Source: Halofilum ochraceum
GTDB taxonomy: Bacteria > Pseudomonadota > Gammaproteobacteria > XJ16 > Halofilaceae
Direction of reading: 5' to 3'
Assembly: GCF_001614315.2 (NCBI RefSeq)
Contig: NZ_LVEG02000007.1
Location: 1-64,000 of the forward strand
Length of the DNA stretch: 64,000 nucleotides
In this document: piece by piece, positions 38,575 through 41,602 of the stretch
Numbering within the stretch: position 1 is the first letter of the stretch
Layout: each line of letters begins with the position of its first letter
The notes under the pieces: model-generated
The model's input: only the letters and a program-made list of their open reading frames with translations
What the model was told of the DNA's origin: nothing
Databases searched by the model: none
Position numbers and translations under genes: made by a program

Positions 38575-39240
38575 TTGAGCCGAAAGAAAGGCAACAGCAA
38601 GCGGAAGCCAAAATCCGCAAGCGGAAAAACCACGCCGAAGAAGAACACATCGGGCGCCGGCGCATCGGGACGCCCGCGTCGGCCACTGAGCCGGGCGAAG
38701 ATCCGACGGCGCATTCACGCGGCCCTGTTCGCGGTATTCCTGGTGGCGCTTGCCGGCGCCATGTGGTGGGTGTCCAGCGCGCGTCAGGGCGATTTCCTGA
38801 CGCTGGCCGAGCAGGGCACCGAGGCGATGCGCGCGCAGGTGGTTTCCGAGCCCTCGGCCGGGCGTGAACATGTGTCCGGATCGATCGATTACGACCATCG
38901 TTTCCCGTTGTCGGGGCCACACAATCCCACCTGGGTCGAGCCCGGCGTGTATGACGCGCGGCAGCCGATGGAGAAGCTGGTCCACGCGCTCGAGCACGGC
39001 AATATCGTCATTTATTACGATGAACCGGGCGCGGAGGTCATGGGCCGGTTACGCGAGTGGGCCGGGCTGTATGACAACCAGTGGTCGGGGATCGTGGTCA
39101 CGCCGGCGGCGGGGCTGGGCGAGCAGATCGTCATGAGCGCCTGGACGAAAAGGCTGCAGCTGGAGGAATTCACGGCCGCACCGGCCGCCGCGTTTATTGA
39201 CGCATACCGCGGGCGCGGTCCGGAGAATCCGGTCCGATGA
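38575..39240 (+). CDS. DUF3105 family membrane-anchored protein
   Basis: A 221-residue protein with a Lys/Ser-rich cytoplasmic N-terminus, one membrane span (about 47-66) and an extracytoplasmic DUF3105 domain. The domain signature is GPHNPTWVEPGVYDARQPME followed by LVHALEHGNIVIYYDEPGA, with His residues that could bind metal. The start is a TTG at 38575 behind GAGGAAA; no better codon is available. Its stop overlaps the next ATG by four bases, so it is co-translated with the cupredoxin-like gene. Function unknown. Confidence 0.83.
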   Translation: MSRKKGNSKRKPKSASGKTTPKKNTSGAGASGRPRRPLSRAKIRRRIHAALFAVFLVALAGAMWWVSSARQGDFLTLAEQGTEAMRAQVVSEPSAGREHVSGSIDYDHRFPLSGPHNPTWVEPGVYDARQPMEKLVHALEHGNIVIYYDEPGAEVMGRLREWAGLYDNQWSGIVVTPAAGLGEQIVMSAWTKRLQLEEFTAAPAAAFIDAYRGRGPENPVR

Positions 39241-39641
39241 TGTGCCGGCGTTTGGATATGCGCGTGGGGTTACGCCGGCGCCAGTCGCCTCTGCGGTGGC
39301 TCGGCGTGGTCATGCTGGCGCTCGGATTGTCGGGTCCATGGCCCGGAACTGCGAACGTGGCGATCGGCGCGCCGAGTTTCGAGGTTGTGCTCCAAGACGG
39401 CGGTTCGCGCGAGGAAAACCGGACACTGTCGGCGAAGGCCGGCGACACGGTCGCGATACGGTTCCGTTCCGACCAGGCAGTAACGCTGCATCTCCATGGA
39501 TACGATCGTGAACTGCGGGTACCCGCCGGCGGCGCGGCGACCATGCGGTTCGATGCCGCTATTCCGGGGCGTTTCCCGATCGAATTACACGGCGGCCACG
39601 GCCACGGCACCATTGTGTATCTCGAAATCCTGCCGGACTGA
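39237..39641 (+). CDS. Exported cupredoxin-like protein
   Basis: A 134-residue protein with an N-terminal signal/anchor segment (about 21-40) and a single cupredoxin-fold domain. The potential metal ligands are histidines: H85 and H87 in LHLHGYDRE and H118, H121 and H123 in ELHGGHGHG. The type I copper cysteine is absent, so it is not an ordinary blue copper protein, but it could bind Cu(II) or Cu(I). It overlaps the DUF3105 gene by 4 bp and is four bases from the next gene, forming a coupled trio. Exact function unknown. Confidence 0.78.
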   Translation: MMCRRLDMRVGLRRRQSPLRWLGVVMLALGLSGPWPGTANVAIGAPSFEVVLQDGGSREENRTLSAKAGDTVAIRFRSDQAVTLHLHGYDRELRVPAGGAATMRFDAAIPGRFPIELHGGHGHGTIVYLEILPD

Positions 39642-39645
39642 CGTT

Positions 39646-41130
39646 TTGTCCGGCGGCGCGTGTTCTCGAGGCCTGTTCCTGTTCGTCCTGTCGGCACCGG
39701 TCGCACCGGCGTGGGGGCACGCGCTCGGTGGCCGCTACGATCTGCCTCTGCCGCTGGGCCTGTATCTCATGGGCGCTGGTCTGGCGGTGGCCTTTTCGTT
39801 CATCGGGGCCATCGCTTTGCTGCGCCCGGTCGGCGCGCGTGTGGCTCGCCGATTCGATCTGCTCGGCGCGGCGCCCGCGCGCGGCCTCCTGCGGCCACCG
39901 CTTGTGTGGGTCGGCCCGATCGCGGGGATCGCCGGTTTCCTGTTCATCGTCACGACCGCATTGTTCGGCAGTGCGCACGCGAGCGAGAACCCGGCGGTCA
40001 CGCTGGTGTGGGTCGCCTTCTGGGTGGGTGGGGCCTACCTGAGCGTGGTGTTCGGGGACGCCTGGTGGCGCGCGCTCGATCCATGGCGTCACGGCTATCG
40101 CTTCTGGGAGCGATGGGCCGCTGGCCGTGGCTGGCGCCATCACCTCGGCTGGCCGGCCGCCGGCATGGGCCGTTGGCCGGCCGTTGTCCTGCTGGCGGGC
40201 GTTTTCTGGCTCGAACTGGTCTATCCCGATTCCGCGCAGCCGCCGACGCTCGCCGTGCTGATCCTGGCGTACAGCGCCGTGACCTGGACGGGCATGGCCC
40301 TGTTCGGGCCGGATCGCTGGTCCCGGCGGGGCGATCCCTTCGGTGCCCTGTTCCGCGAATTCGGCCGTCTGGCGCCCATGCGCTATCGGGCCGGTGGCGC
40401 GGGCGGGGAACCGTCACTGGAACTGCGCCCTCCCGGTGCGGGCCTGACACCGGCATCGCCGGTACATCGCTCGACCACCGCGCTGATCCTGCTGGTGCTC
40501 GCTGCGGTCTCGTTCGACGGCCTGTTGGCGACGCCCCAGTGGGCCGCCACCTGGCGCACGCTGACCGGGCTCGAGGGCGTCAGTACGCTCCTGCGCGCAT
40601 TCGAACGGGCGGGCCTGAGCGGCTACGCCGTGATCTCAACGCTCGCTTTCGTTCTGACGGTGGGCGTGTTCGTGGGACTGTATGGTGCGGCCTGTGCCGG
40701 CATGGCCCGCCTGTTGCGTGGCGAGAGCGCATTCATTACCGGACGCATGGCCGATCTGTTCGCACCGTCGCTGCTGCCGATCGGTGTCGGCTACCACCTC
40801 GCGCATTATGTCTCCTACCTGCTGATCCAGGGGCAGCGGCTCATTGCGCAGGCGAGTGACCCGTTCGCCAGCGGAGCCGATCTGCTCGGCACCGCCGACT
40901 ACCGGGTCGCGATCGATGTCATCTCACCGGGCACGGTCTGGTACCTCGCGGTCGCGGCCGTGGTCCTCGGTCATGTGATCGCCGTCTACGCCGCCCATCG
41001 CCTCGCACTCATGCACCTCGGCGACCGCCGCGCGGCCGCCATCAGCCAACTCCCGCTGATCGCCCTGATGATCGCGTACACGGTCTTCAGCCTGTGGCTG
41101 TTCGCCCAGCCGACCGTTGAGGCGGGATAA
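39646..41130 (+). CDS. Polytopic membrane protein resembling proteins annotated as fenitrothion hydrolase (FedB-like)
   Basis: A 494-residue membrane protein with roughly ten spans. It starts with a signal-like segment ending WGHALGGRYDLPLPLGLYL, a sequence type I associate with proteins labelled fenitrothion hydrolase. It has no recognisable hydrolase motif, so that name should not be taken as function. Conserved-looking His residues lie in GVGYHLAHYVSYLL and near the C-terminus (HVIAVYAAHRLAL). The start is TTG at 39646, four bases after the cupredoxin stop; no ATG in frame fits. Coupling suggests a membrane complex with the two upstream products. Confidence 0.72.
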   Translation: MSGGACSRGLFLFVLSAPVAPAWGHALGGRYDLPLPLGLYLMGAGLAVAFSFIGAIALLRPVGARVARRFDLLGAAPARGLLRPPLVWVGPIAGIAGFLFIVTTALFGSAHASENPAVTLVWVAFWVGGAYLSVVFGDAWWRALDPWRHGYRFWERWAAGRGWRHHLGWPAAGMGRWPAVVLLAGVFWLELVYPDSAQPPTLAVLILAYSAVTWTGMALFGPDRWSRRGDPFGALFREFGRLAPMRYRAGGAGGEPSLELRPPGAGLTPASPVHRSTTALILLVLAAVSFDGLLATPQWAATWRTLTGLEGVSTLLRAFERAGLSGYAVISTLAFVLTVGVFVGLYGAACAGMARLLRGESAFITGRMADLFAPSLLPIGVGYHLAHYVSYLLIQGQRLIAQASDPFASGADLLGTADYRVAIDVISPGTVWYLAVAAVVLGHVIAVYAAHRLALMHLGDRRAAAISQLPLIALMIAYTVFSLWLFAQPTVEAG

Positions 41131-41602
41131 AAAGGCTTTTCACGCAGAGCCGCAGAGCACGCGAAGGAAGGTCAAAATCGGTTTCTCGCCAAGACGCCAA
41201 GCGCGCCAAGTAAGGCAAAAATAGAGAGATAAAAAAACAGAAGGGCGCGCATTGATCAGCGCGATAGAAATGCCTCCAGGGAACCTCTGGCCAAGTCCAG
41301 ACAGCGTATTGAGGAATGGTGTAGGTCGGGCTTCTAGCCCGACAGATCAGGGGCTTACGAGTGTCGGGCTGTAAGCCCGACCTACAGGCCTCCCGATAAT
41401 CGGAGGATCCCTGATCAGCGATGCCGCGTTGTGAGCTACCGAAGAAATCGGCGCGGATCAGGAGAATCACAGAGTGATTTTTATACTTTAACGATTTTCC
41501 TTGGCGCGCTTGGCGTCTTGGCGAGAAACCGATTTTGACTTTTCTCCGCGCCTCAGCGCCTCTGCGTGAGGCCGATTTTGACCTTCCTGCACTATCGCCG
41601 GA
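41131..41602. repeat. Intergenic repeat island between convergent genes
   Basis: This 472-base gap contains no credible gene. A 38-base arm at 41173-41210 is the perfect reverse complement of 41500-41537. A second pairing links 41166-41181 to 41572-41587. Both ends carry CTCTGCG/CGCAGAG-type tracts of a kind seen in many environmental bacterial genomes. A REP-like pair sits inside at 41321-41385, and a weak hairpin (AATCAC/GTGATT, 41465-41479, then TTT) follows it. The whole has the look of a non-autonomous, MITE-like insertion. Confidence 0.75.
41321..41385. repeat. REP-like inverted pair, second family
   Basis: The left unit (41321-41343, starts GTAGGTCGGGCTTCTAGCCC) and right unit (41363-41385, starts GTCGGGCTGTAAGCCCGACC) are near-perfect reverse complements. 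Each is itself a small hairpin (GTCGGGCT/AGCCCGAC). The sequence differs from the REP pair at 27.5 kb. Confidence 0.85.

Follow-up and report, generated by a model that had tools for sequence, protein, structure and literature searches.

Three closely spaced genes of Halofilum ochraceum, whose products are here called P1, P2 and P3, raise the question of whether they form one conserved unit and what such a unit would do in the cell envelope. They lie in a 64,000-nucleotide stretch of DNA that was analysed as a whole and is referred to below as the window. A preliminary description had presented them as a coupled trio on one strand. All three open reading frames were indeed recovered, with an ATGA overlap between the first two and with the TTG start of P3 (39646) located four bases past the TGA of P2 (Table 1). 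P1, P2 and P3 are the only members of the operon. That description also deduced a fixed product ratio, which overlaps by themselves do not imply, and called the trio rich in histidine. The histidine contents of P1, P2 and P3 are 2.7, 3.7 and 2.2%, respectively, versus a mean of 3.4% for the ORFs of the window. What is noteworthy in the trio is a few conserved histidines and not the overall histidine content. Downstream of P3, long inverted repeats lie in the region 41140-41588, between this gene and a convergent glcF-like gene. They include 54-nt arms (41160-41213 and 41497-41550, 93% identity) and 25-nt arms (41320-41344 and 41362-41386), and related units are found at the same position in the sister genome G001.

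Table 1. Coordinates of the genes, signals and conserved residues of the locus (positions in the window)
Feature	Position	Strand	Basis or remark
P1, membrane-anchored DUF3105 protein	38575..39240	+	221 aa, TTG start; PF11303, E 5.8e-28; alignment A3
Putative ribosome-binding site of P1, GAGGAAAA	38564..38571	+	Sequence ahead of the TTG start
ATGA overlap, P1 stop and P2 start	39237..39240	+	ORF coordinates
P2, exported Cys-less cupredoxin (predicted)	39237..39641	+	134 aa; profile matches to CuA/laccase chains, fold match, alignment A2
P2 H85 and H87 of the LHLHGYD motif	39489..39497	+	Both invariant in the family (alignment A2)
P2 H118 (ExH)	39588..39590	+	In 9/10; adjoins the position of the usual copper Cys (alignment A2)
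P3, inner-membrane protein (predicted)	39646..41130	+	494 aa, TTG start, signal peptide, about 10 TM helices; alignment A1, AF2
P3 H25, probable first mature residue (AWG, then H)	39718..39720	+	His in 41/44 Cys-less members
P3 D291, FDG motif	40516..40518	+	Asp in 42/44 Cys-less members vs 0/13; His in 13/13 Cys-bearing members
P3 H384 and H387 (YHxxH), transmembrane helix	40795..40806	+	H387 universal
P3 H443 and H451, next helix	40972..40998	+	Cys-less branch only

Judged from sequence comparison, the conserved unit is the P2-P3 pair and not the trio. Scanning 84,980 species genomes for P3 yielded 70 loci, mostly from Mesorhizobium but also from other proteobacteria and SAR324, and plasmid records add haloarchaea and Actinomycetota to this range. 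A P2 gene is located directly upstream of P3 in Rhizobium CF080, Janthinobacterium, Limobrevibacterium, Variovorax, Nonomuraea, Pseudonocardia, Mycolicibacterium rufum, M. chubuense NBB4, M. dioxanotrophicus and Rhodococcus ZPP; the pair thus spans alpha- and betaproteobacteria and Actinomycetota. In seven P2-P3 loci, the stop of P2 and the start of P3 overlap by four bases (ATGA or GTGA). A search with P2 alone is less biased, and every match that it gave lies at most 3.5 kb from a P3 gene. On plasmids, all four matches (two of them near-identical) abut P3. Among 398 Pseudomonadota genomes, P2 was found only in the window genome and in one other (G342), where it is encoded 3.1 kb upstream of a same-strand P3, from which two genes separate it. 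Many P3 genes, including most of those from alphaproteobacteria, have no P2. For the preliminary description, failure of the three families to co-occur in other genomes would refute the system: this disposes of the trio, DUF3105 adjoining P2-P3 in the window genome alone among the P3 loci examined, but not of the P2-P3 pair, which recurs across phyla. The P2-P3 gene pair has apparently not been described previously. No paper on the P3 family was found in the open-access literature, most subscription journals being outside the scope of the search, and none of the family models searched covers P3.

The history of the locus was examined in G001, which belongs to the same genus. The trio is absent from this genome, where its two flanking genes (89% and 93% identical) stand side by side. 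However, a relic of P2 persists between them (G001:C6:75909-75994, L163; 86 bases, 78% identity), with a protein match to P2 residues 62-100 (E 1.9e-9). This relic disfavours a recent insertion of the trio and implies that at least P2 is ancestral and was then lost from G001. Since the trio is missing from a sister species, the locus is dispensable.

P2 had been described as an exported protein with a cupredoxin fold but without the copper cysteine, and our data agree. Single-sequence Pfam matches of P2 to cupredoxins are below cut-off. With the P2 family profile, matches at about 1e-5 were obtained to CuA domains, to laccases and to a nitrite reductase, but two designed Ig-like proteins reach similar scores. 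The AF2 model, built from only four sequences but good in its core, has nitrosocyanin as its best fold match (Z 9.4, rmsd 2.5 over 88 residues). Other matches include nitrite reductases and N2O reductase, and most of the 50 matches listed are cupredoxin domains. P2 has a single cysteine, at position 3 within the signal region, and no cysteine is conserved in the family (alignment A2); mature P2 therefore lacks the copper-ligand cysteine that characterizes type-1 blue copper sites. The LHLHGYD motif and a final GxFxxExH are conserved in the family with some exceptions (alignment A2). Furthermore, actinobacterial P2 sequences display lipobox-like signals at their N-terminus.

FtrB (8vuk), which is among the Foldseek matches of the P2 model, likewise has no such cysteine; it binds Cu2+ and accelerates the oxidation of Fe2+ (PMC11966278). 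P2-P3 might take up or oxidise iron, as FtrB-FtrD within FtrABCD. Both combine a small periplasmic cupredoxin devoid of the HHC type-1 site with a membrane partner (PMC11966278), and haloarchaeal P3 genes have Iron_transport proteins, as well as a heavy-metal P-ATPase, among their neighbours. However, no FTR1-type permease or FtrA adjoins P2-P3 in the loci read, and neither FtrA nor FtrC does so in the window operon or the annotated plasmid loci. The neighbours of P2-P3 are mostly copper genes, which are commoner than those pointing to iron. The putative ligands of P2 lie in HxHGYD and ExH, with no match established to D118/H121, the ligands of FtrB (PMC11966278), and P3 has no Fe-S cysteines. 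In view of the different ligands and the lack of FtrA and FtrC, we did not file P2-P3 as an Ftr system and consider a role in iron very unlikely. In composition, P2-P3 loosely resembles FtrB-FtrD.

P3 has no match in Pfam, NCBIfam or PDB sequences. The preliminary description likened it to proteins labelled fenitrothion hydrolase. Nothing beyond that description supports this label: the listed plasmid matches of P3 are annotated as hypothetical proteins or not at all, no hydrolase family is matched, and no paper linking fenitrothion hydrolase to the P3 family was found. The homology of P3 is instead to NapH-like redox membrane proteins. We therefore rejected the idea that P3 is a fenitrothion (organophosphate) hydrolase, which is hardly credible. 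The AF2 model of P3, based on 30 homologues (alignment A1), has a pLDDT of 88.5 and a pTM of 0.88. Compared with solved structures, it gave a best Foldseek E of 0.09 and a VIA-align Z of at most 5.2, none of them above background; this missing PDB counterpart does not show that the fold of P3 is new.

The affiliation of P3 is indicated by larger relatives (profile E of about 1e-18 to 1e-26 in 398 genomes) that match Fer4_5 and NapH/MauN (TIGR02163). By homology through these cysteine-bearing proteins, P3 can be classified as a Cys-less remote relative of the NapH-type 4Fe-4S membrane proteins, whose better-known relatives are CcoG and NosR. P3 keeps the PW of the first cluster motif and H387. 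In contrast to NapH/MauN, it has lost both cysteine motifs, has no cytoplasmic ferredoxin domain and carries H443 and H451 as new histidines and probably an N-terminal one. Residues were counted in 57 non-redundant members of the family, i.e. 44 Cys-less ones (P3 included) and 13 Cys-bearing ones. CxxCPW and CxxxCP are kept in the 13 latter and both absent from the 44 former, where NPW or DPW mostly occupies the first site. H387 is present in all 57. H443 is found in 44/44 Cys-less versus 0/12 Cys-bearing members (one gap), and H451 in 40/44 versus 0/12, an arginine occupying this position in all 12. H384 is variable and missing from the actinobacterial group. As the family may have split only once, this pattern of histidines and cysteines should be read as one historical association and not as 57 independent ones. 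In the model, H387/H443 and H384/H451 would lie at similar depths in consecutive helices.

These intramembrane histidines also form the basis of the main rival explanation, in which P3 is an electron-transfer protein whose Fe-S clusters were replaced by a heme b bound to H387 and H443, and which carries electrons from quinol either to P2-bound copper or to an enzyme of the periplasm. The relatives of P3 are NapH-like redox proteins, and neither histidine varies within the Cys-less branch. According to the model, the two would sit in consecutive helices, each some 15-17 residues from the end that faces the periplasm. However, the Cys-bearing relatives possess H387 too, so that its role may be other than heme binding, and no neighbourhood feature is specific to heme. 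We regard this explanation as unlikely.

The N-terminus of P3 (LSGGACSRGLFLFVLSAPVAPAWG followed by H) reads as a signal peptide. Since H25 follows a signal-peptidase-like site and is conserved in most Cys-less members, mature P3 probably starts with a histidine. CopC and PmoB also have a mature N-terminal histidine. P3 would share this trait, and a copper setting, with CopC/CopD and PmoB-type copper proteins, but it differs from CopD in having no sequence match to it or to any other Pfam family; the window genome carries two CopD genes elsewhere. No second conserved periplasmic histidine that could serve as a brace ligand was identified in the clade of P3 to which the window protein belongs. 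In some Cys-bearing relatives (L115, L121, L123 and L140), the membrane core is preceded by very His-rich N-terminal segments (HDH and HGH repeats), suggesting metal handling there as well.

Copper genes recur in the neighbourhoods of P3. Subunit A of the copper membrane monooxygenase (CuMMO) was found in five of 72,556 plasmid records, and four of these five plasmids carry P3, at 2.1, 6.3, 9.0 and 10.7 kb; since the records are related, the formal probability of 2e-12 overstates their independence. Other copper neighbours of P3 are a galactose oxidase, a multicopper oxidase together with a P-ATPase, and PCu(A)C, while CopC, CtaG or DUF305 genes lie about 10-16 kb from P3 in other loci. A search for CuMMO in the window genome gave no match, and the control genomes were likewise silent. 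In alphaproteobacteria, P3 is accompanied by branched-chain-type ABC transporter genes and only in some cases by PCu(A)C. The P3 neighbour at L093, L147, L004 and L064 is a divergent protein of the PCu(A)C type, and several such loci also contain genes of a branched-chain-type ABC transporter and of a molybdenum hydroxylase. In several proteobacteria, P3 lies beside a secreted propeller-like protein (L017 101-1417, L018 3242-4432, L142 6320-7504), one member of which has a weak match to SBP56.

P1 was correctly recognized as a DUF3105 protein in the preliminary description, its PF11303 match reaching 98 bits for a curated cut-off of 25. It consists of a basic N-terminus, one hydrophobic helix and the DUF3105 domain, whose H99, H116, H137 and H141 are invariant across the family (alignment A3). 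DUF3105 occurs in 3/274 genomes of the class. In the records of Halorussus and Nonomuraea it is separated from P3 by 24 and 37 kb, respectively, which is too far to count. We found no paper on DUF3105 in the open-access literature. In six of ten annotated plasmid loci, the gene that follows DUF3105 encodes DUF305, the domain found in the copper-binding resistance protein CopM (PMC4335983), and CopC or CtaG is close by in several. In Meiothermus, DUF3105 belongs to a copper-resistance cluster. These associations with DUF305 and CopC-type genes support a link of DUF3105 to copper on its own account. P1 shares with these CopM-like pairs the domain, its invariant histidines and the copper context, but has P2-P3 instead of an adjoining DUF305. 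It also falls, unlike them, into a subgroup without the usual cysteine pair, with DUF3105 proteins of Meiothermus and Aminobacter as closest relatives. DUF3105 looks like a local addition to P2-P3, apparently from another copper setting. On Aminobacter pUSP5 (L086) and Arthrobacter FB24 plasmid 1 (L124), DUF3105 is also found close to genes for sulfite oxidase, cytochrome c and pseudoazurin, and adjacent to a TDT-family transporter, which hints at a tie to sulfite or redox processes in addition to copper.

The junction of DUF3105 with P2-P3 in a single genome could also mean that the trio is merely co-transcribed. P1 would then act independently, e.g. as a resistance protein of the DUF305 type, and P2-P3 would have a non-metal role such as aiding ABC transport of organic substrates, Mesorhizobium-type P3 genes being adjacent to Liv-type ABC transporter genes. 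The cupredoxin fold of P2, the conserved histidines and the copper contexts in unrelated hosts argue against this, and we find it very unlikely.

Our preferred reading, held tentatively and at close to even confidence, is that P2-P3 is a copper-handling module of the envelope, outside the cytoplasm, which DUF3105 has joined in this genome. From the copper- or redox-linked envelope complex of the preliminary description, this retains a copper-linked envelope pair and abandons the three-gene conserved unit. It is based on what was seen, i.e. gene order, homology, conserved residues, the fold of P2 and the neighbourhoods. The arguments are the gene order conserved across phyla, the copper neighbourhoods, the conserved histidines, the cupredoxin fold of P2, the exchange of cysteines for histidines in P3 and the pairing of DUF3105 with DUF305 elsewhere. 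Against it stand the many P3 genes, in fact most, that lack P2, the ABC transporter setting of alphaproteobacterial P3, the neighbours of the trio in the window, which are not copper genes, the missing CuMMO match in the window genome (with silent controls), the relatedness of the CuMMO plasmids and the dispensability of the trio.

In this module, P2, exported or lipid-anchored, would bind copper through the histidines of LHLHGYD and the downstream ExH, without a type-1 cysteine, and would exchange it with P3. P3 would descend from NapH-type 4Fe-4S proteins, its cluster cysteines being replaced by a set of intramembrane histidines and a mature N-terminal one, and may convey either copper or electrons destined for copper between the periplasm and the membrane, or else only provide a docking site for P2. 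The outcome would be a supply of copper to envelope cuproenzymes or control of periplasmic copper. Here, DUF3105, a putative periplasmic His-bearing protein from CopM-like DUF305 copper operons, would assist P2-P3. Copper binding, the direction of transfer and physical contact among P1, P2 and P3 are steps that we infer.

A bolder proposal, doubtful although not far-fetched, is that P3 is the founding member of a widespread family whose Fe-S clusters were exchanged for an intramembrane histidine site and which, together with a dedicated Cys-less cupredoxin, acts as a copper reductase or transporter loading envelope cuproenzymes such as CuMMO. The metal supply of extracytoplasmic copper enzymes, including the CuMMO that oxidise gaseous hydrocarbons, is poorly understood. 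P2-P3 is a small candidate module that has no family name, occurs in several groups of bacteria (and, as P3 alone, in archaea too) and recurs beside CuMMO. If the proposal is true, it would provide an unusual case of histidines replacing Fe-S ligands in a membrane redox family.
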